This document shows positions 21,301 through 46,309 of a DNA stretch of 64,000 nt, piece by piece. Source of the DNA: Enchytraeus crypticus (taxonomy: Eukaryota; Annelida; Clitellata; Enchytraeida; Enchytraeidae). Each line of letters starts with the position of its first letter. Position 1 is the first letter of the stretch. Location of the stretch: assembly GCA_905160935.1 (NCBI GenBank), contig CAJHZI010000414.1, positions 2,481,001-2,545,000 of the forward strand, in the 5' to 3' direction. The notes under the pieces were generated by a model. The model saw nothing but the letters and a program-made list of their open reading frames with translations, did no database searches and was not told where the DNA came from. The position numbers were made by a program, and so were the translations under genes.

Positions 21301-24300
21301 GACCAAGATCAAGTACATACTGTTTCCCTTATGCAACTACAATATTACACAACAGGAAACATTACAGCACAAAATAAAGTAAATTTGTCTACCTTAGACT
21401 ACTGTAATATTACACATAAATTGCATTGGAGTATAAGGTCTTCATTAGACAACCGTAGTAAAAGAACCTCTCTTTAGTTCTCTGTCAAGTGGCAGGTCCA
21501 AAGTACATCTTCCTAATAACATTCAGCATTCATGCTCCATAACGAGCACTCAATCCATTAGTAAGATATTCCTTTCACAAAAGGCTAAGCCTTTTCCATA
21601 CTTAATGCAACCCACCGCTTGAAAATAATGCTTTTGAGGTGGTTTCTCTTTTCCTTCCTCAGTTCTTGCTCAGTCACCTCTTACGACATGTGCAGTTTAT
21701 AGTTGTCCACTCTTCAGTGGTCCAGACACAATGCAGAGAAAAATACACAATATCATGTTATTATTAATTTTTTGTACTACTATTGCTATCGCGGTATTTG
21801 TACTACTATTTGGTATTTGTACTACTATTTGGTATTTGTACTACTATTTGGTATTTGTACTACTATTTGTACTACTATTGTACTATTGTACTATTTGTAC
21901 TACTATTTGTGCTACTATTTGTATACTATTTGGTATTTGTACTACGCGGTATTTGTACTACTGTGGTATTTGTACTACTATTTGTGCTACTATTTGTATA
22001 CTATTTGGTATTTGTACTACGCGGTATTTGTACTACTGTGGTATTTGTACTACTATTTGTGCTGCTATTTGTATACTATTTGGTATTTGTACTACGCGGT
22101 ATTTGTACTACTGTGGTATTTGTACTACTATTTGTGCTACTATTTGTATACTATTTGGTATTTGTACTACGCGGTATTTGTACTACTGCGGTATTTGTAC
22201 TACTATTGCTATCGCTATTATTAAACGAGGTATTTGAGTACTATTGAATTTTATCATTAACTTATTATTATCCCGACCCTGGTTAAATTTGGATTTAAGG
22301 GAAGATGATGATGATGATGATTTGAGTACTATTGAAGTCTAAGATCATTATCTTCATCATCATTTTCCTTTTAACTCCAGTTTAACTAGGGTCGGGATAT
22401 GGAATAGACCTTCTCCAATCCTCTCTGTCCCAATTACAGTGCAAGATACTTTTAAGAAATAACACATAATATCAGGAACAATTTCATAGGCCTGAGTATC
22501 TTGCATATTATACCAGAAGTATTCCAATACCTCGTTTGAATAGCAATAGCAATAATAATAATATTAGTAAAAATCATATTTATAGTACTAGATATAAATT
22601 CTAAAAACAATTCGTTTAAAAAAATTAAAATAAAGATATTTATATCTATATTAGTGAAAAACAGAGATCATATTAGCAATAATAATAATAATAATAATAA
22701 TAGTATCAAGAAATAGTAATAATAAATTTAAAATAATTAAAAATAACAATACTATAACAACAACAACAACAGTAATAGTAGCAATATTTGTACGCTCAAG
22801 AAATCCATTCTTCAATTCAACGATGGTGTCCTTGTTTAACTTGCTATATAGGCTACTAATGAGGTTAAATCTCTTCCATAGCACAAACCATTGTTCACTA
22901 CCTCAGTTTATTGTCGATTGTTTTGCTATTTTGTAAAGTGTAGTGGGTTAAAGCTGGTAAAGCTAAGGTTAACGTCAGTTTCCTCCCTCGAAAGCGATGT
23001 CAGTGACAGGCGAGCCCAGGATTTGAACCCCGCACATACTGATCCACGGTTGAGTATCTTACCGACTTCGTCACTGGCTCAGGCCAGTGAAATAAATAAT
23101 TAAATAGTACTAACAAGGTAAAGTTTCTTCCACAGTACATCCCATTCTCTCAGCACGGCTGTGATCTCCTGCACTATAGGAAGCTCTTTAGGAATCACTG
23201 TCTCGTACGAGCTATAAAATAACAAAATAAAATAATATCTGCACAAAACAAACAAGAATAATTAGAGCTTTAAAGTTATACGCTGCCCACTTTCCGAAAA
23301 TTCATGAAATTCTACGAAGGTAAGCAAATAAAATTTACTTTGTCAACAATCGATAGATTTAACAAAAAACAGAAGAAACTAAAAATGACTAAATGATGCA
23401 TTGCTATAAGTTCTACATTTAAAAAATCAAGCAATAATTATGCTAAAAACTTAAAAAAATCACTGCTAAGAAAAAAAATTAAAATACAGATATTCACCAT
23501 AGAATGTCTATGCAATACGTAAGGAAAATGTTACATACCCTGTCTTATCAATGATAGCTTCCTTAACACACACATAGCTCTTGGGAAATATCCCTTGCAA
23601 TGTCCGTTTCTTTAAAGCATATCCACAATACCAACCTGCACATATTAATGACAATCATCTTCATCATCATCATCATCTTCCCTTCAAGCCTAATTTAACA
23701 AGGGTCGGGATACGAATATACTGTCTCAAATCCTCTCTGTCCTACATCATATCATCAGTCAATCCCCATTTGAGACTTTTCCATTCGCTTATATATCACA
23801 TATTAATGACAATGCTAACAGAATTACCCTAGGAATTTACATACCAACTTTCTTATTAAAATAAGAAATATGTGATTCTTTTGATCGTAAGAAATCTGTT
23901 GGCCAGTAAACAGTATTGCATTTGATAAATTCAGCGGTTCAGCCAACATTTAGATTAAACAAAAGAATAAGAAAAAACATTTAATTTATGCATTGTTCAC
24001 TCTAATATAAGTGGAACAAGATACTGTTTATAACTACAATGTGTCTCTTGCATTAAATGATCTCGACCAGAAATGGATATTTTGAAACATGAGAGAAACA
24101 GAAACAGAGAAAGACAGAAAAATGTTAATATTTTAACCTTCACACTGCTGAGCAATACGAACGGCATCTCCAACATTCAAGTCCAGAGTATTGGGCCACG
24201 AGGATTTAAAGTTGTATATGGCTGAAACGAATAAAGACAAAATAGAGAATAAATTCTTGAGTCACTATCAACACCAGGATTTCCATATAACATGATCTCT

Positions 24301-25515
24301 GAATGTAACACAAATATAAATATTAACGCCTGAGCAAAGTATAAAGTATTCCTTTAAGTAGTAATATGCGCAGTCTATAAGCTTCAAGATTTACATGTCT
24401 TCAAATGATTTTTTTTCATCATATGAAGCCAACAAAGCCTGTAACTCAATTTTTAGAATGAGCGGTACTCTGTAGCATACACTCAATACAAACAGCAAAA
24501 AAGGCTTAGGTTGTCCGTCTTAAATCTCTAACCATCTCAGCTGTGTCCAAGTGGCAAATAAACAAATATAAGAATAGCTTTATTAGTGAAAAATAACATT
24601 TGTGAAAAGTTATATTTTTGAGCATGACACAATTCGAAATTATTTTGGAGAAAATGATCAGATTCAATGATTCCAGTTATATAACTGTATGTGTTCAAAT
24701 GCAGAGAGGGTGACTTTCGTTTATCCTGAACTTGATCAATTTAATGCTCAGAAAAAGGTTCACACAAGCAAGTATTTGCTTTTCACTACTAAAACTAACC
24801 CTAAACTATAAAAGTTTATAAGTTTAGAAGTATTAAGTTTTGATAAGTTTAGAGCTAAAAGAAAATGGATATTACAAGAAAAGGATTAAACATTAAATAA
24901 AATATTTTATGGAAGATTGATATGGCTAGGTACTAACTTTCACTTTTAAGGTACAATCGATACAAGTGGGCTTAATGGCGAAATGTATATCTAGGAACTT
25001 AGAGTGGTAGATTATGATCACAACACTGCATATAGTAACTTAAAGTATATAGAAAGAAAGATCTAAGCACTTAGGAAAATAATTTCAATTTGATAGTCAG
25101 TTCTTCCATAAAATTGTGCATTTCTTTTGACTGCATGTAATAATTTTTCTTAAATATTATAACTGAGATTTTTCAGTTAATTTAATTAAACTTAGGATGA
25201 TCATCCTGCTAATAACATATAAATATATTATAAATATATGCACCATTAGTCTAGTACTTAACTTAATTACAGTGATTCAGGAAGTCATGAAGACTTGCAC
25301 CATCAGTCTTAAAACGACCCAAAATGTAAATTTCCAGAAAAATCACGAGAAAGTAAATACAAAGAAACAGCGGAACCTAAAGTGAAGAATTGCAATTTAT
25401 ACTATTTTATTTAAAGATGCAACATATAATCCAAATTTTCTTGGAAAATCAAAGCGGACATACCGACTCCGTATTTAGTGGCAGTATCCGTATCGATCCA
25501 TTCGGAACCAGCCAT
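5..25515 (-). CDS. DOCK1: DOCK-A family guanine nucleotide exchange factor (DOCK1/2/5-like), 5' 25 exons, 3' truncated by window
   Basis: Rac activator that with ELMO controls actin, engulfment and myoblast fusion (family knowledge). Exons in transcript order: 25464-25515, 24138-24221, 23539-23635, 23115-23211, 20943-21047, 19273-19328, 18545-18632, 17245-17384, 16431-16512, 15580-15643, 14240-14387, 13644-13764, 12258-12339, 11258-11382, 10322-10420, 8298-8370, 7709-7812, 6543-6744, 5412-5509, 4873-4962, 3960-4060, 2758-2919, 2273-2452, 298-404, 5-66. All phases join, giving 873 codons. It starts [17 protein letters not shown]. An SH3 domain spans about residues 13-73 ([16 protein letters not shown]). 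The C2-like DHR-1 spans about 398-575 (GFPDVIMPG, then [15 protein letters not shown], then [12 protein letters not shown]). The helical region follows ([39 protein letters not shown]). DOCK-A is preferred over DOCK-B because of [18 protein letters not shown] and FSATLAYK. Catalytic DHR-2 lies outside the window. DOCK1, DOCK2 and DOCK5 cannot be told apart here. Confidence 0.95.
524..650 (-). mobile_element. LINE tail fragment (family of 15860-16288)
   Basis: Antisense copy of the last ~120 bp of that LINE: CTCTCT, then TTAGTGCACTGCCTACTGGC, then CCATGGTATATAACGCCTC. Confidence 0.8.
850..960 (-). mobile_element. CR1/L2-like LINE 3' tail
   Basis: Antisense of the 3'UTR seen at 27540-27600: ACAATTAGAGTGCTACTATC, AGTGACAAAATCGAGCACTG. 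Further antisense stubs lie at 2140-2235 and 12118-12225, and a sense stub at 19400-19540. Confidence 0.7.
1018..1884. mobile_element. 0.87-kb near-perfect palindrome (foldback or MITE-like element)
   Basis: Two arms of roughly 410 bp, about 1018-1430 and 1475-1884, are reverse complements with scattered mismatches around a short GC-rich centre near 1452. Outer ends begin near GTTTTAT/AATATACACTG. Both strands can be read as near-identical 81-codon frames (starting MKSNHFFLK), a consequence of the symmetry and not genes. It sits in DOCK intron 23. Family unknown; no clear target duplication was made out. Confidence 0.85.
2455..2712 (-). repeat. TTGA/GATT tract at acceptor of DOCK exon 23
   Basis: AATC/CACT-type degenerate tetranucleotide tract on the plus strand. 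In transcript sense it reads GATTGATTGACAG directly into exon 23 at 2452. Confidence 0.9.
2924..2943 (-). repeat. Short TTGA tract at acceptor of DOCK exon 22
   Basis: In transcript sense TTGATTGATTGATTTCTTGCAG leads into exon 22 at 2919 (shown here as adjoining segments TTGATTGATTGATT and TCTTGCAG). Confidence 0.85.
4269..4385 (-). mobile_element. LINE tail fragment (family of 15860-16288)
   Basis: Antisense copy containing TTAGTGCACTGCTTACTGGC followed by the CATGGTATAAAACGC segment, through TGAGTGGATCTTTAAAC. Confidence 0.8.
4965..5098 (-). repeat. TTGA/GATT tract at acceptor of DOCK exon 20
   Basis: Plus-strand (AATC)n with variants. In transcript sense GATTGATTGACGTAATAG precedes exon 20 at 4962. 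Confidence 0.9.
5180..5412 (-). repeat. 45-50-bp minisatellite repeating the DOCK exon 19 donor region
   Basis: At least four degenerate units follow exon 19 in transcript direction. Each holds a version of AATAGTCAAG|GTTGAT, the end of the exon plus its donor, and AACAAC/TTTAAATATAA filler. The copy whose exon-like end is at 5273 matches the real junction (5412) almost exactly; others have lost the CAAG. Confidence 0.85.
5519..5605 (-). repeat. Broken TTGA tract upstream of DOCK exon 19
   Basis: Short (AATC)n runs at 5521-5536 and 5573-5600 lie 10-90 bp upstream, in transcript sense, of the exon 19 acceptor at 5509. Confidence 0.75.
5587..5790 (-). mobile_element. SINE family 2 with (GAT)n tail
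   Basis: Antisense: tail CATCATCATCATCTTCTCTT, TCTAGGGTCTGGATAAG, AAACCGAATGCCCTTTCTGA, TTGTCGCCTTCTACGACACG, ends ACACAACAACACGGG. In DOCK intron 18. Confidence 0.8.
7044..7235 (-). mobile_element. SINE family 2 with (GAT)n tail
   Basis: Antisense: GTCGTCGTCGTCATCATCAT tail, TTTCTGGAGCCTACGCGTTC, AACCGAATGTCCATTCTGG. In DOCK intron 17. Confidence 0.78.
7380..7625 (-). mobile_element. tRNA-derived SINE, family 3
   Basis: The minus strand has the B-box GGGTTCGAATCCCAG (7528-7545 region). The plus strand reads ACCGCTAGGCAATTTAGTCC, CTGTCCAGTGAATGTCCGAG and TGACGTTACCCCTACGATAT. A second copy lies at 50030-50225. In DOCK intron 17. Confidence 0.75.
7815..7985 (-). repeat. TTGA/GATT tract at acceptor of DOCK exon 17
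   Basis: Long degenerate (AATC)n. In transcript sense GATTGATTGATATCAG joins exon 17 at 7812. Confidence 0.9.
8042..8290 (+). mobile_element. Interspersed repeat C
   Basis: GTCAACAGGAAACCACTCAG, GGATAAAGCATAGACTTTGT, TTAACTTGTTGATCTAAGAA, CCTGCCATTTGGCAGTGCAT, ends in (GA)n that almost touches DOCK exon 16 at 8298. Confidence 0.72.
8430..9553 (-). repeat. 17-bp minisatellite, about 66 copies, upstream of DOCK exon 16
   Basis: Plus-strand unit CTGTATCAGCTGTTTAT with frequent single-base variants and a few 9-bp shortened units. In transcript sense each unit holds CTGAT (matches YTRAY) and ACAG. The array starts about 60 bp upstream of the exon 16 acceptor (8370). Long open frames across it are repeat artefacts. 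Confidence 0.95.
9950..10165 (-). mobile_element. Interspersed repeat D with (TTA)n tail
   Basis: Antisense of the 13440-13640 copy: CGAGTAGCCGGGCGGCGATT, GCTTCAGCAATTCTTTTAAG, TTCTTTGGCAAAGGCTTTCC, tail of AAT units. In DOCK intron 15. Confidence 0.75.
11076..11140 (-). mobile_element. Very short LINE tail fragment (family of 15860-16288)
   Basis: Antisense: CTCTTAGTGCACTGCTTACT, GGCAGGTCCATGGC. Confidence 0.75.
11403..11660 (-). mobile_element. SINE family 2 with (GAT)n tail
   Basis: Antisense copy with CTCAAATCCTCTCTGTCCTA, TTTCTGGAGCCTAGGCGCTC, CCGAATGCCCTTTCTGACGT and ACGTAACACGGGG. Nearly full length. In DOCK intron 13. Confidence 0.82.
11840..12075 (+). mobile_element. Interspersed repeat C, 3' part, with long (GA)n tail
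   Basis: TTATTGATCGATGGAGTGCT, GACCTGCCACTAGACAGAAC, then about 125 bp of GA repeat. The open frames on both strands here are only the dinucleotide tract. Confidence 0.7.
12636..12717. repeat. (CT)n microsatellite, about 80 bp
   Basis: Pure CT run in DOCK intron 12. Other long dinucleotide runs: 28085-28159 (CT) joined to 28159-28190 (TA); 52530-52680 (GA, interrupted); 18280-18332, 33567-33632, 34421-34480 and 53374-53418 (TA); trinucleotide CTA at 15376-15414. Confidence 0.95.
13440..13640 (+). mobile_element. Interspersed repeat D with (TTA)n tail, ending at a splice donor
   Basis: ATCGCCGCCCGGCTACTCGA, GAGTTGCTGAAGCAGACTGC, GAAAGCCTTTGCCAAAGAAA, then (ATT)n. The tail reaches to within a few bases of the exon 12 donor (exon end 13644). 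Confidence 0.78.
13985..14090 (-). mobile_element. tRNA-like SINE head (other family)
   Basis: The minus strand reads CTCAGTGGTTCAGTGGTATA (A-box-like) and GGGTTCGGGGTTCAATTC (B-box-like), tRNA promoter spacing without a convincing cloverleaf. In DOCK intron 11. Confidence 0.6.
14389..14477 (-). repeat. TTGA/GATT tract abutting acceptor of DOCK exon 11
   Basis: Nearly pure (AATC)n on the plus strand. In transcript sense TTGATTGATTGATAG runs straight into exon 11 at 14387 with no separate polypyrimidine tract. Confidence 0.95.
15015..15063 (-). pseudogene. Decayed partial duplicate of DOCK exon 12 (3' end)
   Basis: AGCCGGATCACC-ATAAGTTT + TCTCATAGTAACCCACATGC matches the exon 12 segment at 13645-13690 with few changes. 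A 1-bp deletion breaks its frame. It lies between exons 10 and 11, upstream of the true exon 12. Confidence 0.72.
15155..15210 (-). mobile_element. Truncated SINE family 1 head
   Basis: ATGTCTTACCAACTTCGCCA followed by CAGGCTCCAACCAG matches the antisense head only. In DOCK intron 10. Confidence 0.6.
15687..15800 (-). mobile_element. SINE family 2, 3' part
   Basis: Antisense: TCATCATCATCATCATCAGC tail, AACTAGGGTCGGGATAAGAA, CTCAAATCCTCTCTGTCCTA. Confidence 0.75.
15860..16288 (+). pseudogene. 3' end of an endonuclease/reverse-transcriptase LINE
   Basis: A 132-codon frame (15869-16267) reads [72 protein letters not shown] and ends near VPWTCQ, the usual C-terminal region of invertebrate LINEs of this kind. 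It ends in a short tail ACCTGCCAGTAGGCAGTGCA plus AGAGAG. It is in DOCK intron 9, antisense to the gene, and is the master sequence for several short tail copies in the window. Confidence 0.88.
16677..16797 (-). mobile_element. tRNA-derived SINE, family 1
   Basis: Minus-strand head GGCTGGAGCCA-TGG and a B-box-like GATTCAAATCCTGGGC, followed by the TCACTGACGTCGCTTTCGAA body; ends at TTACCAGCTT. Confidence 0.78.
17394..17426 (-). repeat. TTGA/GATT tract at acceptor of DOCK exon 8
   Basis: About seven AATC units. In transcript sense TTGATTGATCGGTTGAAG is followed by CAGCAG at exon 8 (NAGNAG acceptor cluster, 17384-17390). Confidence 0.95.
17452..17570 (+). mobile_element. Body-only copy of the chimeric SINE-like family
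   Basis: GACGCCCCTCCCCAGTAAAT, GAGGAAGGCATGGGGGCCAA and CCTCGTCATAAGCAGAATCC without the LINE tail. In DOCK intron 7. Confidence 0.7.
18695..18815. mobile_element. Two SINE family 2 ends, tail-to-tail
   Basis: Plus copy ending GACCCTAGTTAAACTGGGAT + AGATGATGATGATG is followed by a minus copy starting TCATCATCATCATC + CCCTTGAATCCCAG. Confidence 0.75.
19400..19540 (+). mobile_element. CR1/L2-like LINE 3' tail, sense
   Basis: CTTTCTGGATTTTGGAATTT, ATAGTGCTCGATGTTGTCAT, TGTGGCACTCTAATTGTTGT match the 3'UTR after 27460. Confidence 0.72.
21147..21275 (+). mobile_element. tRNA-derived SINE, family 1 (well preserved)
   Basis: Reads GGCTGGAGCCAGTGGCGAAG, TCGGTAAGAT (A-box-like TGGCGAAGTCGG), B-box GAGTTCAAATCCTGAGC, then CATCGCTTTCGAGTGAGG and GACGTTAACCTTAGC. 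Polymerase III promoter layout as in tRNA genes, but it does not fold as a functional tRNA. Confidence 0.85.
21470..21735 (-). mobile_element. Interspersed repeat C, antisense
   Basis: TCTCTGTCAAGTGGCAGGTC, CCATAACGAGCACTCAATCC, GAGGTGGTTTCTCTTTTCCT, ACTCTTCAGTGGTCCAGACA. Confidence 0.68.
21783..22230. repeat. Higher-order tandem array, about 75-bp units built from TATTTGTACTAC
   Basis: Basic words TTTGTACTAC, GCGGTATTTGTACTAC and TTTGTATACTATTTGG combine into a ~75-bp superunit seen three times. All three plus frames stay open by chance. In DOCK intron 4. Confidence 0.92.
22268..22440. mobile_element. Two SINE family 2 ends, tail-to-tail
   Basis: Plus copy TCCCGACCCTGGTTAAATTT + GATGATGATGATGATG, then about 45 bp later a minus copy TTCATCATCATTTTCC + AACTAGGGTCGGGATATGG + AATCCTCTCTGTCCC. 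Confidence 0.75.
22849..22900 (-). pseudogene. Decayed partial duplicate of DOCK exon 4 (3' end plus donor)
   Basis: TACTAATGAGGTTAAATCTC + TTCCATAGCACA aligns with TACTAACAAGGTAAAGTTTC + TTCCACAGTACA of exon 4 (23109-23140) at 25 of 32 bases. It would read VLWKRFNL against the real VLWKKLYL. It has no good acceptor and is skipped in the phase-consistent model. Confidence 0.65.
22951..23085 (-). mobile_element. tRNA-derived SINE, family 1
   Basis: Antisense copy with GGTTAACGTCAGTTTCCTC, GCCCAGGATTTGAACCCCGC and ATCTTACCGACTTCGTCACT; in DOCK intron 4 between exon 4 and its decayed partial duplicate. Confidence 0.83.
23655..23795 (-). mobile_element. SINE family 2, 3' part
   Basis: Antisense: CATCATCATCATCATCTTCC tail, ACAAGGGTCGGGATACGAAT, AATCCTCTCTGTCCTACATC. 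In DOCK intron 2, about 20 bp beyond exon 3. Confidence 0.75.
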
Positions 25516-25984
25516 TTGTTCCGTCTAAATTGACGTTTTGACAGCAAAATTCCGTTAATTAAGGTTAATGGAGATTAGATGAAATAAATAGAAATCCGTC
25601 AAGTTATTGGACAAATGTTCTCAATTTCGCTCAATGTAAACATCCGCATTTAATTCAGGTAAATAAACCAGTGCAAGAACTGCCATTCCAATGCTATCAA
25701 CGCAATTATTAGTCCGTTACTAATCGTGAACTATTAAAAAATAGGAGGTATTCTTTAAATGTGTGAATTTTAAAAACTGTTTATTTCAATTTCGATCAAG
25801 ATGAAGAATAGAGACTCTTTTACGCCAGTGACAGAAATTAAGTAATTATATATTTAAGCGGATACAGGTACTCTAGCTACTTTACTCTAGATACTCTAAT
25901 CAGGACTAGTTAATCTGAAATTAACTAATATAATTGCCTAGAGGTTTAAACATGTGGTACTAATATAAGTGATAGATATCAACA

Positions 25985-26430
25985 TGGTTGAATATTTCAT
26001 TATACTACTACTTCTACGTAACGTCGCTCGGTGGACACCAGAGCAGCCTCCTCAACCCTCTGTCTCCACCTATCACGATCCTGCGCCAAGTCATAAACAT
26101 CACCCGGTGTAAGACTGAATTCAGTAGGCCTATCTAATTTACGTATATCATTATTATATAGTTTTATTAATGTGTATTTGTTTCCCATTCCTACCGTCAT
26201 TTTATTTTTAGACAAGTCTCCTTGAGGTACCACTGTGCTGGTAGTGAATTCTTTACCAAGACAGTTATTATTCAAAGCCTTTATCTAGAAATTGCTTTAA
26301 ATCATCTCTCAATAGCTTTCTATTTACGTAAGCAAAAGCCCTACTCATATTTAGAAGTACTAGTATACTAATGTTAACATTTTGTTCAAGTATTTCATTA
26401 TAATGCGTGCACATAGTAATAAATTGGTCC
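25985..26430 (-). pseudogene. Degenerate LINE fragment, antisense, head-to-head with the CR1/L2-like copy
   Basis: Minus-strand frames read MSRAFAYVNRKLLRDDLKQF, like the reverse transcriptase block around AFD-VNR, and further on LAQDRDRWRQRVEEA, like the LINE C-terminal AQDR-RWR block. The sequence between them is deleted and stops interrupt it. Clade uncertain. Confidence 0.5.
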
Positions 26431-27605
26431 ATTGGTCCAATCCTGTTCAACCTCTACACTACACCTTTTAGCTCATTGAATTCCTCTCATTCATTTGACC
26501 ACCAACTTTTTGCTGACGACACTCAGCTATACACATGCTTCACCCTCCACTCCTATCCCGATGCCAAAGTATGCCTACAGCAATCCTTCCAGTCGATTTC
26601 TTCATGGATGTCTGCCAATTTCTTAGCGCTCAATCCATCCAAGGCTGAGTATGTGCTATTTGGGACACCTCAACAACTGTCAAAACTAAATGAGGCTTCC
26701 CTCTCTCTCACCTCTGACCTGGCCATCACACCTGTTTCTTCTGTCAAGAGCCTCGGTGTCATCCTCGACCATCATCTCACATTCCACGATCACATCACCA
26801 AAACTTCACAGGCTTGCTTCTTCCACATCAGAGATCTGCGTCGAATACGACCATATCTTACCGTTGAGACCGCTTCCACCTTCGGTGCGGCTCTCGTGCA
26901 ATCCAAACTGGACTACTGTAACTCCTTGATTGTTTCTGAATCTCCCAAGCTGTGAGATCGACAGATTGCAGTTCATCCTGAATTCTCTTGCACGTGCAGT
27001 CTTCCGCCGCTCCAAGCACTCCCACGTGACTCCTCTCTTGAAGTCTCTGCACTGGCTTACACTCATAGAACGCATTAATTGTTTACTTTTGTTTACAAGG
27101 CAGCTTCTCTGACATACAAGTCTATTACTACCACAGACAAAGGTTACATGTCCCACTTAATACAAATGAGACAGCCTTTCTCCATGCAGTCATCCACTAG
27201 GTCCTCTAAGCTAATCACTTTAGAGCGACCTAGCATCCCTTCTCGCAGTAAGCTCTCCAAGCGCTCCTTCCAGCATACTGCTCCTCAGATCTGGAATTCT
27301 CTTCCTTCCACTTTACGCACCCCCTCATCTTCTGCTGACCATCCTTTCCTTTCATATGAACAGTTTCATAGACGGTTGAAGGCTTTTCTTTTTGACCACT
27401 TATATTCAACCTTTGCACATAAACTGAGACCTACACGTAAACCTCCATTCCACTAGTACCCTTCCTCGGACCGAACTCCCGGATTTTGGATCGCACCGTT
27501 TTTGGACCCCACACTCTGCTCAGCGGATTTGATTCGGTACCATAGTGCTCAATGTTGTCATTGACGACAGTAGCACTCTAATTTTTTGTTTTGTTGTTGT
27601 TAAAT
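26431..27605 (+). pseudogene. 5'-truncated CR1/L2-like LINE reverse transcriptase with 3'UTR
   Basis: Starts inside the reverse transcriptase at GPILFNLYTTPF and contains the catalytic FADDTQLY, then SMSANFLALNPSKAEY-like thumb sequence (here SWMSANFLALNPSKAEYVLF), VKSLGVILDHHLTF and KLDYCNSLIV. The frame shifts near 26940 and is broken again near 27075, then continues to a C-terminus with APQIWNSLPSTLR and LFDHLYSTF up to 27456. A 3'UTR with GTTGTCATTGACGAC and AGTAGCACTCTAATT follows. Dead copy. Confidence 0.88.
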
Positions 27606-28094
27606 TAATAATTACTATTTTAGTCTATTTTATATTACGTTCGGGAGCTTGGTCGAAAGATAATGATGCCTATTACCTAAAAGCAAAAGTGTTGTTTTGG
27701 TATTTTTATAGCAGTTTTTAATCTTAAATTACTTAACTTAGCTTAACCTAGTCTAACTTAATTTAACTTTAATATACTGGTTTGTCTCTTATGCCTTTCT
27801 TGAATAAAGTAGACACCCTGACATCTTCTCAAACTTGAGCTGCAATCGCAGTTTCGGGCATGATACTGAGCAATTTATTAAATGGACCTACTATGCCTAA
27901 TTGATGTCTCAGCTAAAATATTTATATTTGATGATGATCATCATCTAAACCTAGTGTTTTGTTTCTCTAAAACTAACTCATTATCAGTGAGTAATTCACT
28001 TTTAAGATTTGCCGGAAAGTTAATTTAAATGATTGACAACATAATAGTCGTTATATGTTCTCACTCCTCTCCCTCCATATCTTTCTTTCTTTCT

Positions 28095-28194
<100 letters not shown>

Positions 28195-28415
28195 TGAACT
28201 TCACTGGTGTATATAATAACTAATATTTATTATGAATTGATGACTAGATTGACTCATGGGTTTGACTTTTAATTTAAGTAATGTAATATATTAATAATAA
28301 TATTAATTATAATACTAATATATAATATAATTAAGCGCATGTAATATATTTTAAGGAAAAGCTGGAGAACTATGATATCAAATTAGAATCATTATTGTAC
28401 TATAAACGTATTGAA

Positions 28416-31400
28416 ATGAGTAACAAAGGGCTGAGGAGTGTATCTGGAAGCAGTGATGCCAATCCTGGTAATTCAGATGAATTATCGAGTTTGACAGTAA
28501 CAGATTCATTTAAGATCTTGCATGCCAATGATGTAAGTGCAAGTTGCAACATGATATACACCACTAATCAGGCTTTATTTATTTTGTATTTATAAGTGAA
28601 GGGTGAGGGATGTGACTTCTCATGTAGAATATTTACATGTAACATTTTTTACTATATTAAATTATCCGATATTTCACAATCTAGTGTAGTTTTTTGCAAC
28701 AGGCTGCAACCCTGTCTTTTCACATAACTCATTGGTTAGAGCATCATGACTGCACCTCCTGGGTTCCTTTAAGGATTCTTGACATTCTCGTTATTTTAGG
28801 TACGTTGGATCGCACGCATGCATTATATGCACGTCTTCGGCTGTTTTTAAAAATTCATTTCTGGGTACAAACACATCTTATGTCTTTTCATGTAAGTTTC
28901 TCTGATACATTTCTTAAGGTATTACATTTCAGGCATATATTTCAGAAGGCTGATATTTAAAGTACTTGTACTTTAAAAGAGTGGCTGCTCAAACTATCAA
29001 ATTCTTTTCAAATATATTTAATGGACTAAAAGTTAACTTTACCTAATATTTTCTATAGTATTAATTCTCATGCCATTATACTTCTGTTTAAATTATCATC
29101 AATGATATTATTGTACTATTGTTTAGCAGAAGAATGTGTTAAATGACGATTATCTCAATTGCACTGTCTTTGACAGTATTGGATGTTAAGCCATTAATAT
29201 TTGAAGCGAGGTGCTGGTATATACTTTTTTATTTCTGATTGGAACACAAAGGACTGTTTAACTTTGCTCTGCATTGCAAAACTATGTTAATCTTAATTCT
29301 TAATGTTAGTAATTATTATTCAATTGTCTATTTTACGTAATATTTATGCTGCAGGAGCAATTCACAGAGCAGATTGCCGATAGGTCAGGGGTGTTGCAAA
29401 AGTGTAGGACTGGGAAGAATGGAGGGGATGGAAGGAAGGGAGTCAAGAGAAAGTTGAATGGTAAGAAAACCAAGCTGGAGGCAGCTCAACAAAACATGGA
29501 TAGCTATATAACTAATGAATCGCCAGAGGAGAAGTCGGATATGGACGCTCTGAGAAGTGAGTTAATTACAAAATGTTTCGTTTCTGAGATTTTTGAAATG
29601 CTGTTTCTTTATATAACTAACAAAGTCATTTAACATATAAACTGAAATTATTCTAAGGGGCATTAAAATTTAAATGAGCTACTATGTATTTTTGTTTACA
29701 AATTAAAACACTCACTAGGTATCACTTAACAACTAATAACTTGGAAATACACATGTATACCATAATTTGAAGAGTTCGTATACGTGCTTTTAATTTCTTT
29801 GTGTTTACAAATTATAAAAATAAGTGTATAGTATGTAGCAAAATTTCAGTAATTATTTAAAGGTTTTTTGGCATACACGGTGTGGATTTATTATGTTGTT
29901 TTGTGGATTAATTCTGTACACTTGGAATGTTTTATGTCTTCTAGTTTGGACTTAATTAGCAACAGATTCATTATTACTATCAAGCCCATATCAGCAACAG
30001 AGACCTAGTTAGCAACAGTGTCCTGATTACCAGATGTTTATGTAGTATTGTCTGGTGATTTGATTTAGCTGTATCAGATGTTTATAGTATTGTCTGTTGA
30101 TGTGGTTTGGATGTATCAGATGTTTATAGTATTGTCTGTTGATGTGGTTTGGATGTATCAGATGTTTATAGTATTGTGTGGTGATTTGGTTTGGCTGTAT
30201 CAGATATTTATTGTAGTGTCTGGTGATTTGGTTTAGCTGTATCAGATGTTTATAGTATTGTCTGGTGATTTGGTTTGGCTGTAGCAGATGTTTATAGTAC
30301 TGTCTGGTGGTTTGGTTTGGCTGTATCAGATGTTTATAGTATTGTGTGGTGATTTGGTTTTAGCTGTAGCAGATGATTTATAGCGATAAATTTTATTAGG
30401 TGTTGTATTTTTAATCATGATACGAGCTGTAGTATTCTATTCACAGTTTTGATTTTTGTTTAGATTTAGGTTTATCAGATGATGAAATTGCTAGATTGGG
30501 TATTGAAGATAGACAGTGTTTGGTATGTTGACAATTTATTCTCGTAAAGTGATGAAATTGCTGCGAAATAGACTTGTTATGGCTGATTTTAGGCCTATTT
30601 TGAACTTGACTTCATTTCTACTGTCATCGTCAGCATCATCATCATCTTTCAGCATCATCATCATCTTTCGTCAAACCCAGTATAACTAAAGACGGGATAC
30701 GAATAGACCTTTTTGTCCATTCTTTTAGAAAATCATGTAGCACTTTCTGGAGCCTAGGCACTTACCAATTGAATTGCCGTTCTGACGTTGGTTTAGATCG
30801 TAGTGCTTTTCGCCTTTTATGGCATGTGCAGCCCTCGGTTTTTCTATTCTTCAGCAACTCGGACCCAACAAGGACAAAATCTGCTCTTAATCTTCTAAAT
30901 TCTCGTTCTGAGTAATTGTTGCATTTTAAAATGCCTCTTAACTGCTATATAATAATAAAGTTCTGTGATTATATATAAAATGATTATATTTTAAAATACT
31001 TTAATTGATTGTTCATAATGCGAAGTACTGTATTTTGCAGATTAAAGTGTACAAGGAGTCATTAACTGGTAATTGTGAAGTCAATTCTTCTGTTGATTTT
31101 AAATCTGGTGCGCCCGCTGGGTCTGATATAGGAGCAAGTTTTGAGCTGAACTTGAATCAGAGCAATCAGAACCATCATAGCAAACAGTCCTGTTCAAAGT
31201 CACAGCCAAAAAAAATTGGCCATTTTGAAGCCCAAAAGAATAATGAAAGACAGTGCAATAGGTCTTCTGTAGCATTTAAGTCACTATCTTCTAATTCTTC
31301 GTCATTCAGTAATGCTGCTAGAAAGAATGATAAACACATTGCAACCGGAAAGTCGTGCAAGGAACGATATGGTGTCATATCGGACTATTCTGGAATCAGC

Positions 31401-33561
31401 AGATCTGTAAAGAACAAGGGTTCTGTTAGTTGCAGTAGCGGGGTGCTGGCTGATGGTTCTATGCTTTCAACAGATGATGATGCCGGTAATTTAGTGATGG
31501 AAGCTTCGCAAAGTGAAAATCGTAACAGTCAGGATATTTTCTATGACAATGATAGCGAATCTAGAAATGCTTGTAGTAGTAGACAGCAAGTTACCAATAA
31601 AATCTATTCCAGTCAATCCATTGCTCTAGAATCAGACGTAAGAGTTTTGAATATCAGTAAGAAAACATCCAACTGTAAAGCCACTTCAGAGCCTGTAAAT
31701 CATCAAAATTGTCAGGTTTTGATTGACAAATCATTATGCAATTCACTTGGCAATCCAATTATCCCGTCTTGCTCTGCGCATTCTAACAATTTGAGGGCAT
31801 CTATGGTAAAGCTTGTGCCTCTTGAGATTTTCATGCACTCTGCACGTTCACATAACGATACTAGAGGAAAACGGCTTCTGCTGACAGACAAAGTTCAACC
31901 ATCGGCCTCTCACACTCCAGTCGCGGCTAATTCTGACTCAAATAGAAATAACATCATTGATCTTATTAGATCCCAGGGCAGTCCTACTGGAAATTCTCTA
32001 TCTTGTAGTTATGTAACAGATGACTGTTTTGTTTCTAATAGTACCACTAGAAAATCTATAGTTCTGTTATCGGCAGAAGAAGCATCTAACGAGAGCGTCG
32101 CTTATTCTAACTTTTCTCAGAACCGTGGCAATTCGCCTGATGCAGTATTGGCGAAGAACGCAAATACAAAACATAGCGACAATGCTGGTAGTGAGAAGAA
32201 CCATACTAGTAACGACTTCGGAAATAATTACTTTGCCTGTTCTAAAAATCGCGGGAGTAAATCTGCTGCGTTAAAGCAAAAATCCGGATTGAAGTCTGGT
32301 ACTGGTAAAACAGTTGATACTAATAATGACGTGGATACCAGTAAAGTGACTGATACCAACAAATCTGAAATATTGGATAATATTGGTTGCAAACAATTCC
32401 ATGATATCATTACGAAGGACGATGGTGGAAAAGAGGTCAGTAGTTTTAAATAATTCCAAGGAGTAGTTTTGCTATGACGAATGTATTCACATTGCCTCTG
32501 CACTTCCTTATTTGTTGAATTCATGAATCGATAATAACTTATTCATTAATACTAAAATTAATGAATTAGTGTTGATGAATTGATTCGCAAAGAATGAAAA
32601 GAAATTAATTAGTATGAATGAATACTAAGAGAAGAAAAAACAAAAGTTTAACTTTAACTGTAGTGTGTTACTACATTGTTTAAATTTAAAGGTTAACGCT
32701 CATAGGCAATAGCGATGTTGGAGAAACTTTTGTTAAAAGATTAAATACATCGAATTTAGTTATCAACTGGTAAAAGGGCAGATATTCCTATAGATTACGT
32801 CCGCAGTTATTATATACGGTAAAAATTTGCTTAGTTTAACTGAGAAATGGTAAAAGTAGGATTTTGGGATTTGAGGTTTATTTCGATAAATGCTACAAAT
32901 TAATAGTTAAGCTACCAATTGGCCTAAAGGCATAGTCAAGCCAGTGGTAGGGGCTTACAATATAGGCTACGTTATTCATTTCTGGTTATGATTTAAGAGA
33001 TTTCAGGATTTCTAGTTTTATAACTGTGAAAAATCTCAAATTTTTTTTAAAAACCTTAAAAAATTGACAACTTATTATTTTAAAAAGCATGCGTTTCCAT
33101 ACCTGTAAATAGATTAAAGAAATTGCTAGAATCGGAAGTACCTAGTGTTAATTGGACGATGGATAGGCCCACAGCGCCTTTGACAGATTGACACATAGGC
33201 CTATTTCAGTCATTTAATTATTATAAATGAAGACTTGTAAGTTAAAGTGTAAGTAGGCTACATTTTCAAGGGAATAGATCTAGGTCTAAGTTAAACTTAT
33301 ATGTCAAAATATTAATCTTATGGAACTATTGAAACCAAATGAGACAAAGGTGTTGGCTAAATGTATATTCACTTACACTGATTTGCACTACACATGTAAT
33401 ACGATATGAGTCTCACAGTCTCTCTGACTCATTAGTCTATCTTCAGTAATTAAATCCGGAAGTACTATCTGTTACAGAGATCTATCTTGAGCAGCAAATT
33501 CAATCTATTTTTAGAACATCTTACGAACTGAACGGGAAAAAAAATATCGCCACCGGGTCAG

Positions 33562-40990: not shown

Positions 40991-41592
40991 CAAGATAAAG
41001 TTGAGAATAGAAAAGTTTCATAAGATGCAAGAAGCAGATTTGTAGTTATCTCAAGAATAAAGTCGAATGGTAGAGATTGATATCGGCGAGAATATCTTTC
41101 CGTTTATACGAGCGGGTATTAGAGTGGAAGCTGTGAATGAAAGAATGCCAACCCCTCATAACAAAATATGTGAATCATCTAGTATATTGATTTCAAAAGA
41201 ACATGGTTTATGATGCAGGGAGGTCCTTAGCATCTTCCTTAGATTAGGAAATAAACAATATTACAAACTTTACGATACTTCATTCTTTGAGTTATTGATA
41301 ATGATTAAGCTTGTTAATCCTTTTTAAATGATGTGAGAAATGGTATGATTTTATAATCATAAAGCAGTGCAAGCTTTTTTAAACGAATAATAGATATATA
41401 TCTAATTTAGAAATAAATTGCTAATTTTCATTGTGAAATGTTGACTTAATTACATTTTTTAAGTCCTAGGTTATCCAAAGCCTATCTTTGCTCACTCCAG
41501 TACTGGATACCGCTCATGCAGTTGCAGTGCATATTAATGATAATGCCTATTAATTAGGCTAGTTGGAGCAGCTCTGTATGAACAATATTGTC

Positions 41593-44500
41593 ATGGATGG
41601 TGATGACACTGCTGATGTTGTTTTTGTTAACAGAATTATAACACAGATTATGGAGAACGTGATAGAACAGCAATTGCTGGCTGCGACACAGATGATAGAG
41701 GAGCAGGTGGATGCTAAGATCAATCAGTTAGACAACATGAAAGAAGACGATTACGAGGCAGTACGAGCTCGCAGACTGGAGGCTCTGAAAAATGCTGAGA
41801 AACAGAAACAAGAATGGAAGGCTGCTGGACATGGAACGGCAAGTATAGATTTGAATAGTTGACGTGATAATTTATGAAGATTTCGAGTGTTTGTTTTCAG
41901 AGATCCTTTCTTAGTTGCTCTGAATTTATTCTAAAAGGTGGGCCAATTTTTGCCCAGTTTTATATTTCATGAGAAATGCATGAATTTTCTGTCTCTAAAG
42001 GATATTAGTTCTGGATGAGCTCCCTCTTGGATTGATTCTTTCTTGAAACAATGAATGTGTAGAGTACACGACTTGCACTCTCTATATGGCTCCGCCTCCT
42101 GATGTTTCATTGAACAGTAGTTTAGCTTTTATTAAAGTTTACTCAGTTGAGGTGTTCCTTAGGCAGGAATCGGTTGTGCCACTGGTCCAATTGTATCCTT
42201 TAATCCTTATGGAATGTTTTAGTAAGTTAACATAACTAGTGTATTATGTTACTAGTGCCAGTGAATTATTACACACTGCGTAATAATTCAGGTATAGTTT
42301 ATCTGCTGCTTAGACTATGGAGTAAAGTATATTTTATTGTTTGGCTGTCACTGGATCTGATTCTGTATTTTTGACAGTCCTGAGTTTTACAAGTGAACAA
42401 GCTCAACCTGAAGTATAATGCTGTGACAATGAACCGAAATTCTGAGATTTGCAGTACTTAGAGAATCTAGAAATGAGCACTAATTAGTTGTTGTTGTTAG
42501 TGCCCATCTCTAGTGAGATCTACTGAACAGTTTTTAATGCGATGCTGAAGATCTTCCTTTAATGCAGCTCGAGCTGCCTAATCTCAAATTCTGACTGAAA
42601 TGATTTAGTAGGTTCATTGCTCAGCTGGTCTGTCAAATCTCAAATTCATACTGGAATGTATTAGTAATTAGTATGTTCGTTGATGATTACTTCATACTGG
42701 AATGTATTAGTAATTAGTATGTTCGTTGATGATTAATTCATACTGGAATGTATTAGTAATTAGTATGTTCGTTGATGATTAATTCATCGACTTATAAATT
42801 CAAAACTTCAAGTATCCATCCTTACAGTGGCAGATCCAAGGGGGGTCCGGCCCCCCCTTAGGCCCGACGATAAAAAATTACAAACTATATTTTCATTGTT
42901 TCTATGCAATTTCTAGGTGTATATATGTTTTTAGGGGGTTAGGGGGGGGTACAAGAGGGAACTCAAACAGTCTGACTACCTGAAATTTTTTCAAATACGG
43001 GCCCCACTAAGGGCCCATATAACGGAAGGGGGGGCCCAAAAAATGTTGACCGTTTCATTAGCTCTCAATTTTCACTTTAGCCACTGTATAAGAGGAAAAG
43101 GGTGTAAATAAAAAATGTGAACTCTCTCCCGGAACAGTGGTGCAAACCGCCTTGGCTGAGATGGAAGAACTTAAGCCCCCCCTCATCTTCCGCCAAAATT
43201 AGGTCACTTTTGCAATTGGTCCAGATCCGCTGAGTTTCTTCAGAGGTGAAATAAATTAACCTACTTTTTTCCTAAACAAATGTAGGATTTTAGGCATTTT
43301 AGGTTTTCCTCTCACTTTAGTACGGGAATGAGGGGGGTGGGTAAGATACGGGGATATACTCACTCTATGAGCCGAGTGCAGTATGCTGAAAAATTTTGAG
43401 CCCCCCCCCCACAGCATTTTTTCTGGTTGCGTCACGTCCCGAAAAAGGCGGGGCGTAAGCAAAAACGTGTACACTGTCTAAAAAGAATTTTCGGGCCCCC
43501 CTTAAAAAATTCCTGGATCCGCCCCTGCATCCTTATTTCTATTGCATTTCACCATATCTGTATTGCATGGATGTTATTGAATGCAGGGAATTTGCATATG
43601 GCCTCAAAATTATTGACCAAATAAATATAAATTGCTGTTTATATCTGTTTGAAAACAGTACGAAGAGATTGGTGATGAAGCAGAATTCTTTGCAACCTGT
43701 AAGAAGAGTAAGCATGTTATATGCCATTTCTACAGAGATTCCACATTCGCCTGCAAGGTTTAAATTAATTGCAATTTGTCAAGTTGATTCTACTAACTAC
43801 ATCTATTGTAGTTATAGAGAATTGTTATGTTCATAGATAATTATTTTTATAGTGTATTTTTAAAGAATTATTTTCATGAAATTTTTTAAAAGTTTTGACA
43901 ATTATTTTATTCTATTTTCATAGTAATATTATTCGGTTTTTTTGCAGTATACTCCATCAATTAAATCACTAAAATTTGATTAAACACTTTCAAGTACTTT
44001 TTTCCTTCTGAAGAATCGTTTCTATAAGGATTTTACCAGCTATGTCTCTACGCAGGCGCAAGTTATATCATCGGGACTTGTTAATTTTGTTGATCATCAG
44101 GTGATCGCCAAATATTGCGCTGGTTTTGCACAAGGCAGTCAGTCAATCAATTGGCTGGAGCCAGTGGCGATGTCTGTAAGTTATCCCAACGTGGATCAGT
44201 ATGTGCTGGTTCAAATCCTAGACTCACCCATCACTGACATTGCTTTCAAGATATGCAGCTGATGTTAATATCGGCTTTACAGCCTTGTTACAAGCAATAA
44301 GAATTTAATGTCCGGTTCATTACCATAAGGCAATGCAAGGGACGTCTTAAGCAGACTCTGCAACATCTGATCCCAAAACATCCAATGATGACAGCTGAGT
44401 ATTTGAAGACCTCAAAAGAAGAAGTCTGGGTATTGCATTGATTGTAGTATATGGCGCGTTGCCTCTGCCACTTCCCTTATTATTATTATTTTTCTACTTG

Positions 44501-45524
44501 CAGCACTTTTATTAAATTGACACCAAAGATCTCTTTAGTTGGATCTGCCAAATGGCAGATTCAAATCATCCAATATGCTTATTCCCATTCAAAAACTCTT
44601 TTCAGTCTCTGTAAGAAGAGATTATAGACCAACAAGTTGATCAGTAACAAAGAGGTAAGCTGTTTCAATCCTTAATGTAGCCTTTAGGCTTGCACAAATA
44701 TCAAATATGATCGAGTTATACAGTACAAGCTCTATATTACTTTAACTTACTGCTGCTTGTTTCAGGTAGTTGATAATACCACTTGAACTTACTTCTGCTT
44801 GTTTCAGGTAGTTGATAATATCACTTGAACTTACTTCTGCTAGTTTCAGGTAGTTGATAATATCACTTGAACTTACTTCTGCTTGTTTCAGGTAGTTGAT
44901 AATATCACTTGAACTTACTTCTGCTAGTTTCAGGTAGTTGATAATATCACTTGAACTTACTTCTGCTTGTTTCAGGTAGTTGATAATATCACTTGAACTT
45001 ACTTCTGCGTGTTTCAGGTAGTTGATAATATCACTTGAACTTACTTCTGCTTGTTTCAGGTAGTTGATAATATCACTTGAACTTACCTTTGCTTGTTTCA
45101 GGTAGTTGATAATACCACTTGAACTTACGGCTGCTTGTTTCAGGTAGTTGATAAGCATCTCGCGCTGCTTGCTCCCAAACACCTCGAAGCCAGATTTGTA
45201 AAGATAAACGCAGAGAAGAGCAAATTCCTCGTAGAACGTCTGCGCATCAAGATGCTGCCGACGATTTGCCTGGCGAGGGAGGGCAAAACAGTTGACTACG
45301 TCGTGGGGTTGGACGATGTGGGAGGTACGGAGGATTTTCCCACTGAAATGCTCGAGTGGAGGATTGCTCGTGCTAGGGTTATAGAGTACAGCGGAGATCT
45401 TTTAACTCCGCCCATTGTGGGCGGACCTAAGACATCTCTCAGTTCATTGGCCGCCGGTAGAGGCCACGCGAAGAAGACAATTAGAGGCGGTGATGACGAT
45501 AGTAGTGATGACGATTGGAACTGA
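41593..45524 (+). CDS. TXNDC9: Thioredoxin domain-containing protein 9 (TXNDC9 / APACD-like)
   Basis: Exons 41593-41838, 43659-43757 and 45144-45524, all phase 0, give 241 residues (human is 226). TXNDC9 is a phosducin-like thioredoxin-fold protein that binds the CCT chaperonin and modulates actin/tubulin folding (family knowledge). The N-terminal helix has EQQLLAATQMIEEQVD and AEKQKQEWKAAGHG. Exon 2 carries KHVICHFYRDSTFACK, the degenerate redox site with a single Cys. Exon 3 carries KHLEARFVKINAEKSKFL, TVDYVVGLDDVGG and the acidic tail KKTIRGGDDDSSDDDWN. An upstream in-frame ATG at 41578 would add five residues; 41593 is preferred because MDGDDTADV resembles the family start and has G at +4. 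Intron 1 has a GC donor (ACG|GCAAGT). Intron 2 ends in a minisatellite that repeats the acceptor. A hAT-like element lies in intron 1. Confidence 0.93.
41839..41840 (+). other. Non-canonical GC 5' splice site of TXNDC9 intron 1
   Basis: Exon 1 must end in phase 0 after GHGT to join YEEIGDEAEFF of exon 2. The only fitting junction is ACG|GCAAGT, a GC-AG intron with an otherwise strong donor. The nearby GT (GCAA|GTATAG) would be out of phase with the sole good acceptor at 43658. Confidence 0.75.
42628..42790 (+). repeat. ~48-bp tandem repeat, three copies
   Basis: TTCATACTGGAATGTATTAG, TAATTAGTATGTTCGTTGAT, GATTAA repeated at 42645, 42690 and 42738. In TXNDC9 intron 1. Confidence 0.88.
42835..43527. 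mobile_element. Non-autonomous hAT-like element, 693 bp, with 8-bp target duplication
   Basis: Ends CAGTGGCAGATCC (left) and the complement of CAGGGGCGGATCC (right) form imperfect terminal inverted repeats. The 8-bp sequence CATCCTTA flanks both sides exactly (42827-42834 and 43528-43535), as expected for hAT insertion. The inside is rich in G and C runs and has no transposase frame. It lies in TXNDC9 intron 1, 131 bp before exon 2. Confidence 0.85.
44153..44285 (+). mobile_element. tRNA-derived SINE, family 1
   Basis: Sense copy GGCTGGAGCCAGTGGCGATG ... GGTTCAAATCCTAGACTC ... GCTTTACAGCC. In TXNDC9 intron 2. Confidence 0.83.
44520..44695 (-). mobile_element. Interspersed repeat C, diverged antisense copy
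   Basis: TGGATCTGCCAAATGGCAGA, GACCAACAAGTTGATCAGTA, CAATCCTTAATGTAGCC. Just before the acceptor minisatellite of TXNDC9. Confidence 0.6.
44747..45155 (+). repeat. 42-bp minisatellite carrying ten copies of the TXNDC9 exon 3 acceptor
   Basis: The core GTTTCAG|GTAGTTGATAA recurs exactly every 42 bp, with AG ends at 44765, 44807 and so on to 45143. The last is the true splice site and the previous nine are decoys. Units differ by a few bases (for example CTTGTTTC versus CTAGTTTC). In exon frame each decoy reads VVDNIT followed by TGA. A 146-codon open frame on the minus strand is only the repeat read backwards. Confidence 0.95.
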
Positions 45525-46309
45525 GAAGATAGCGATACTGTCTTTGGTGTGTTAGAATAATAGAATTGTATCAGAATGATATTTATTCGTTTCCATTTTA
45601 ATAGAATTTATCAATCCATTGTGCAATTAATTGCACAAGTTAAGTCTACTTGTACTGTATTCTTATTCAGTTAGATAATTAATCAAATACAAATCAACTA
45701 GTTCTCATTCGCTAATGGTTAAATTAAATCCATTCAGTTCAAAATTTCAAAGTAAGGATTTTCTATAATCTACTGTTCTCTAATTTATTCTGTAACGGCA
45801 TCATGAGCTCTTGGCTACTTTCTGTGAAAGAATTTCATTGGCTAAGCGAATCATCGTGAAGCTCAAGTTATGCCTTTTCAGTGATTTGATATTTGTGTAA
45901 CTCCTTCATTGATTTTTAATACTACTGAGAATAAGTATATGTATGAACTAAATTAACGAGTTACACAGAAAAATTGTATATAATGCTAATTTTACTAATT
46001 TAAATTTATTATTAATTTGATGCACAATTACACCGGAAACCGGGATCCAGTCTACTGTTCAGAAGTCAATTATCTCCTGAAGCCAAATTATAGTTTGTAT
46101 TGCTTATAATATTGTTTGTATTCGTAAAAGTGTGCCGGTGGTGTAATGTAAAGAATCTTACTATAATGTGAGCTTGATATTTACGAAAATATTATAAATA
46201 TAACACATAGGTATAATTAATTAGTAATAGAATTATAATAGTAAGCATTTCCTATTAAGAATATTTCTGATTATCAAGATATTGGCGGCATTATGATACA
46301 ATAATTAAA

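Follow-up and report, generated by a model that had tools for sequence, protein, structure and literature searches.

Tandem, minisatellite-like duplications of an intron/exon boundary, called mirages, have been described in the amphioxus gene Adh3 and in the globin genes BflGb6 and BflGb9 (PMC3087553), and further lancelet mirages are found in PGBD5 and troponin C (PMC3902484). Normal splicing is suggested by the Adh3 data and by RT-PCR of the globin genes (PMC3087553), and the mirages of the Adh, TnC, and globin genes reportedly leave splicing undisturbed (PMC3087553; PMC3902484). The same amphioxus authors add that repeats with AG/GT signals could serve as cryptic sites (PMC3087553). Splice sites of a single gene also make up the units of the IFI6 (6-16) minisatellite (Turri et al. 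1995), and minisatellite expansion at exon–intron boundaries, able to alter splicing, has been reported for internal tandem repeats in human segmental duplications (PMC2812944). The available account of earthworm metallothionein genes presents intronic minisatellites and exon 4 duplications that are missing from the final transcript, and no repeated acceptor is described in it. In the open-access literature, judged mostly by title, we found no annelid minisatellite that spans an intron/exon boundary.

Here, we describe an array of this kind at the intron 2 acceptor of the housekeeping gene for thioredoxin domain-containing protein 9 (TXNDC9), which lies on the plus strand of the 64-kb stretch of DNA that was analysed (hereafter, the window). 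As judged from its sequence, the array is a genuine and well-formed acceptor mirage, found outside lancelets in a clitellate annelid: 42-bp units are repeated ten times in tandem at 95 per cent match, and each unit spans an intron/exon boundary that is placed by sequence conservation. Like BflGb6, it is of the acceptor type, combining the 3′ end of an intron with the 5′ part of an exon (PMC3087553). Its unit length of 42 bp compares with 150–160 bp in BflGb6 and 10–72 bp in Adh3, and its ten copies compare with 6 and 3 in two BflGb6 haplotypes (PMC3087553). The border units of BflGb6 are reported to be divergent and its interior homogenized (PMC3087553), whereas border divergence in the TXNDC9 array was judged by eye only, border-adjacent unit 2 and interior unit 7 each carrying one change. 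The repeated sites of IFI6 are donors, and two downstream repeat units are reportedly used (Turri et al. 1995), whereas those of TXNDC9 are acceptors, of which the last alone is expected to be in use. The human repeats can form novel introns, and most of their expansions belong to the primate lineage (PMC2812944); in TXNDC9, by contrast, the additional copies sit within an intron that was already there, and the exon has not changed. RT-PCR and haplotype data accompany the amphioxus mirages, which belong to another phylum, whereas the TXNDC9 array is known from the sequence of one assembly.

The TXNDC9 gene model has three coding exons, all on the plus strand. The coding part of exon 1 (positions 41650–41838; tblastn, sequence, and translation) ends in GGA ACG | gcaagt. 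Exon 2 (43659–43757; tblastn and translation) runs from aacag|TAC to TGC AAG|gtttaa, and intron 2 (43758–45143) is a GT-AG intron of 1,386 bp, the GTTTAA donor of which is weak by a rough matrix of human frequencies. Exon 3 (45144–45524; protein search, tblastn, and translation), which carries the stop codon, is the last of the coding exons. The joined frame has 222 residues. Intron 1 is apparently of the GC-AG type: at 41836–41846, GGA ACG is followed by GCAAGTAT, giving the donor ACG|GCAAGT. Another minisatellite, of 46 bp and 3.2 copies, is located inside this intron (42643–42787, plus strand; TRF).

A protein search with exon 3 returned 278 homologs at E ≤ 0.001 among 297 candidates. Among the best 120 of these 278, the closest is 73 per cent identical, and those with names, from molluscs, annelids, and other groups, are entered as thioredoxin domain-containing protein 9, which bears out the gene identity given in an earlier note on this DNA. 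The thioredoxin Pfam match of exon 3 (E = 1.7e-4, 22 bits) is slightly under the 23.5-bit cut-off. When the same best 120 of 278 homologs were used in tblastn, exons were placed at 41650, 43656, and 45123–45141. The exon 3 boundary was set by the conservation of the residues after the junction, which reads CK|VVDKH in this gene. In 118 of those 120 homologs, the six junction residues are KIVDKH (82), KIIDKH (19), KVVDKH (7), or close variants (10), and the pattern K/Q/R-I/V-V/I/L-D-K/M/R-H is likewise found in 118 of the 120. A short database protein (P0028) that begins just before KIIDKH was set aside as evidence of intron position, its leader being suspect; we take its six leading residues to resemble adapter sequence. 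In a search of the whole protein against its own assembly, none of the eight matches at E up to 10 was a TXNDC9 retrocopy showing the mRNA junction: three are the exons of this locus, one is a relative, and four have E-values of 0.477 to 6.68. The relative, a weaker match (C354:801573–801752; E = 3.2e-8; 44 per cent identity over residues 118–176), is perhaps a phosducin-like gene or a second thioredoxin-domain gene.

The array was reported by TRF at 44734–45154 (period 42, 10.0 copies, 95 per cent match, 0 per cent indels, score 758). Aligned on the AG, it resolves into ten 42-bp units at 44735–45154 on the plus strand, each with 31 bp of intron end followed by the 11 bp of the exon 3 start, and the consensus unit is tatcacttgaacttacttctgcttgtttcag|GTAGTTGATAA. 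The intron part of each unit contains a branch-like CTTAC, a pyrimidine tract, and CAG. A 17-base core, TTTCAGGTAGTTGATAA, has exactly ten copies at 42-bp spacing, with AG ends at 44765 + 42n (n = 0–9), and a search of both strands of the window with up to three mismatches returned the same ten matches alone. In 100 shuffles, the core had, at this tolerance, a mean count of 0.51 and a maximum of 2, and chance is therefore excluded. The claim of the earlier note that an acceptor is present here in tandem copies is thus confirmed by TRF and by the exact-match count; the array starts at 44735, approximately 12 bp before the 44747 that had been given. Its edges are sharp, since the positions matching the unit consensus fall to 13/42 and 5/42 in the flanks. 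Unit 1 runs into unique intron on its intron side, and unit 10 into unique exon on its exon side. A search of the assembly (524,188,772 bases in 802 contigs; best candidates scored, very common words skipped) with the doubled consensus unit gave five matches, all inside the TXNDC9 array, and an origin from a dispersed repeat or transposon was rejected, the unit having been found at this locus only.

Variation among the units is confined to 8 of the 42 columns, all within −29 to −8 of the intronic stretch. None of the ten units has a change in AACTTAC, in the final 7 bases of the intron, or in the 11 exonic bases. Units 3 and 5 are identical, as are units 4, 6, and 8. Unit 1 has three changes from the consensus, unit 9 has two, and unit 10 has three (at −29, −15, and −14), with 0 or 1 in the others. 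The nine upstream units (44735–45112, plus strand; AG ends at 44765, 44807, 44849, 44891, 44933, 44975, 45017, 45059, and 45101) are near-identical full acceptors, as had been proposed; the tract, the CAG, and the 11 exon bases are kept in all nine. Unit 10 (45113–45154, plus strand), with its AG end at 45143, restores the conserved protein, in agreement with the earlier view that the array ends in the functional acceptor, and would be the unit used in the mRNA. Its CTTAC (45124–45128, plus strand), the A of which is 16 nt before the intron end, is a candidate branch point.

The exonic part of the unit encodes V V D K (GTA GTT GAT AA|G). Because these residues are conserved in 118 of the best 120 of 278 homologs, the exonic bases were coding before the repeat existed, and the repeat therefore arose from the splice site. 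By this reasoning, the array is an outgrowth of the TXNDC9 intron 2 acceptor, as the earlier note had suggested. The sequence shows that the 3′ splice site of intron 2, with 31 intronic and 11 exonic bp, was duplicated in tandem, and that the copies spread within the intron as a minisatellite.

As the copy that adjoins the full exon, unit 10 keeps the exonic context, and the conservation of the protein suggests that it would be the acceptor of the main mRNA. On a simple scoring matrix made from human frequencies, unit 10 has the lowest score of the ten (3.76, owing to GG at −15/−14), four decoys score 6.08, and five score 8.41. The matrix is crude, given that the exon 2 acceptor scores even lower (−0.82); if its scores are meaningful, signal strength cannot select the right copy, and context can. 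It is therefore probably the exon context that decides acceptor choice. The upstream copies look complete but have just 11 exonic bases after each, and for this reason they may be mostly ignored; by analogy with the amphioxus mirages, the last unit would be favored by exon definition together with exon 3 enhancers. A candidate exonic enhancer is the purine-rich run AGAGAAGAG (45212–45220, plus strand). Six purine-rich hexamers that were tested occur at six positions of exon 3 (45212–45215, 45470, and 45472), and the same six have no occurrence in 44766–45143. RNA structure that hides the decoys was considered and rejected, as 44735–45204 folds barely better than shuffled sequences (z = −1.30; 10 of 100 shuffles equal or better). 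On the same rough human matrix, the intron 2 donor AAG|GTTTAA scores 0.74, and 88 of the 239 GT sites in 41501–45600 score higher. Such a weak donor could signal a misread exon 2 end; the donor consensus GTYAGK given in the available account of earthworm metallothionein genes tolerates T at +3.

In the exon frame, splicing to any upstream unit runs into a stop after six codons, so that translation ends after codon 102. The earlier note had every upstream copy leading to VVDNIT-stop, which holds for units 2–8 (seven of nine), while units 1 and 9 (two of nine) read VVDNTT-stop. The decoy stops lie 402–738 nt before the true end of the coding sequence. Classical junction-dependent decay requires a later exon junction. 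Since no coding-exon junction follows these premature stops, exon 3 being the last exon with coding sequence, junction-dependent nonsense-mediated decay is not expected, barring an intron in the 3′UTR, and the proposal that decoy transcripts are destroyed by nonsense-mediated decay is weakened in this form; decay through the long 3′UTR is possible. Leaky use of the decoys is the main rival to a neutral, tolerated array. A measurable share of transcripts would use decoys, their mRNAs would stop after CK-VVD-N-I/T-T (102 codons) with most of the thioredoxin fold lost, and TXNDC9 output would be set, as by a dial, by the length of the array, via truncated protein or long-3′UTR decay rather than junction-dependent decay. 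All nine decoys retain the branch-like site, tract, and CAG, all nine have higher scores than the true acceptor on the rough human matrix, and all of their products fall short of the true coding end as described above. However, given the shortness of the exonic sequence after each decoy, the absence from the array of the purine-rich hexamers present in exon 3, and the lancelet mirages that reportedly do not disturb splicing (PMC3087553; PMC3902484), we consider decoy use at a measurable level possible but doubtful.

Recursive splicing offers another view of the same junction, which the earlier note had likened to a ratchet point. Drosophila ratchet points are reported to have conserved motifs, to be predominantly in long introns, and to have recursive exons of approximately 50 nt (PMC8605326). 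In common with them, the TXNDC9 array has AG and GT juxtaposed, with another GT a short distance on, and the AG-to-next-GT spacing of 42 nt is indeed close to that of the fly recursive exons. The rest of the likeness is weakened by the short intron 2 (1,386 bp) and by the donor GTAGTT, which differs from GTAAGT at +4 and +5 and is not a strong one: on the rough human matrix, CAG|GTAGTT scores 6.95 versus 12.78 for CAG|GTAAGT, although it is outscored by only 5 of the 239 GT sites in 41501–45600. Moreover, the GTAGTT sequence is coding in the last copy. A self-correcting variant of recursion would have decoy splicing rebuild a donor, AAG|GTAGTT, that is better than AAG|GTTTAA (6.82 versus 0.74 on the rough human matrix), with an onward splice to the last acceptor repairing the decoy use. 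Because 42 nt is very short for an intron and adjacent units are 42 nt apart, it is plausible only for hops of at least two units. GTAGTT has no G at +5, described ratchet points are mainly in introns longer than the one here (PMC8605326), and a 2021 study, by its title, has the exon junction complex preventing re-splicing; self-correction of this kind thus seems very improbable. Only slightly less so is a functional array in general, in which ten acceptors would form a landing array compensating for the weak intron 2 donor and decoy use would be either a repeat-number dial on TXNDC9 dose or repaired by re-splicing from AAG|GTAGTT.

The copy number could itself be an assembly artifact or vary between haplotypes, so that the true allele has fewer or more units. 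If the source is the Enchytraeus crypticus assembly, it is a PacBio/Illumina hybrid (PMC8460440), in which arrays might be miscounted, and a miscount of two or so units would go undetected because three units are identical and another two are identical. Several units have changes of their own, however, and the borders are clean, which makes this explanation unlikely. On the minus strand, an open frame at 44742–45401 runs for 219 codons through the array and gives a 14-residue repeat protein, for which Pfam reports nine unrelated families, three of them over the curated cut-off and none with a single stretch that passes alone. That the array serves the minus strand as a gene for such a protein is nonetheless extremely unlikely. 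Only this one of the six frames is open, with one stop in ten units, and it is antisense to conserved TXNDC9 coding sequence; its openness follows from a single unit, carried through the array because 42 bp is divisible by three. We therefore rejected the minus-strand protein, and the array can be seen as an annotation trap that yields a spurious-looking repeat protein with Pfam matches.

Minisatellites (20–100 bp units, at least three copies, at least 80 per cent match) number 8 in a 200-kb sample of two other contigs (7 and 1 per 100 kb) and 8 in the window, the G+C content being 35.6 per cent in the sample and 35.3 per cent in the window. The resulting density of 40–61 per Mb, an estimate based on 16 unevenly spread arrays (7, 1, and 8), corresponds to approximately 21,000–32,000 minisatellites genome-wide. 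If first units are placed at random and 60,000–160,000 introns are assumed, 101–407 acceptor-spanning arrays are expected without selection. At this density, a boundary-spanning array is expected as a by-product, and the informative signal would be a deficit of such arrays. None of the 15 other minisatellites in the 264 kb was seen to span a splice junction, as judged by the open frames listed beyond their ends, a survey that gives no count of mirages. A minisatellite at 30031–30383 (42 bp, 8.3 copies; TRF) has the same unit length as the TXNDC9 array and a unit that looks unrelated by eye. On C354 (L033:9512–9659), a 27-bp repeat of 5.5 copies stands beside an open frame of great length (806 codons before and 109 after) and is perhaps a protein repeat. 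The window also contains a reverse transcriptase (RVT_1) fragment (26404–26952; E = 1.1e-7), likely from a retroelement. Five COX1-like fragments on contigs C361, C424, C796, C373, and C166 (four exceed the family cut-off, and TAA or TAG stops interrupt some) are probably nuclear copies of mitochondrial DNA, the mitochondrial contig being another one, C802. The COX1 gene on C802 points to a clitellate annelid: among the best 120 of the 7,999 closest candidates that were scored, it shares 95 per cent identity with a third-party record of Lumbriculus variegatus (90 per cent with other Lumbriculus records), with Mesenchytraeus cf. pedatus, and with Enchytraeidae, and 93 per cent with Amynthas, with no near-identical entry among those 120.

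Within the TXNDC9 array, a circular run of 20 invariant columns, among them those of the AG and the exon, has a probability of approximately 0.04 if the eight variable columns are random. This post hoc value is a weak hint of constraint, against pure neutrality, and we did not rely on it as a sign of selection on the invariant core. Most likely, the array arose as a neutral by-product of the abundance of minisatellites in this genome, and it would be tolerated since the correct product continues to be formed. Taken as a whole, it is probable that a duplicated acceptor expanded as an intronic minisatellite, with the last copy used in the main mRNA and the upstream copies mostly ignored.

The mirage phenomenon, which in the open-access literature surveyed is named for lancelets only, is hereby extended to an annelid. 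The locus is a clean natural experiment: a single intron holds ten almost identical acceptors, and on a rough score the one expected to be used ranks as the weakest. It could show how far exon context alone sets acceptor choice, and what effect copy number has on output. If the functional reading were true, 3′ splice sites arranged as a variable-number tandem repeat would be a heritable splicing regulator in annelids.
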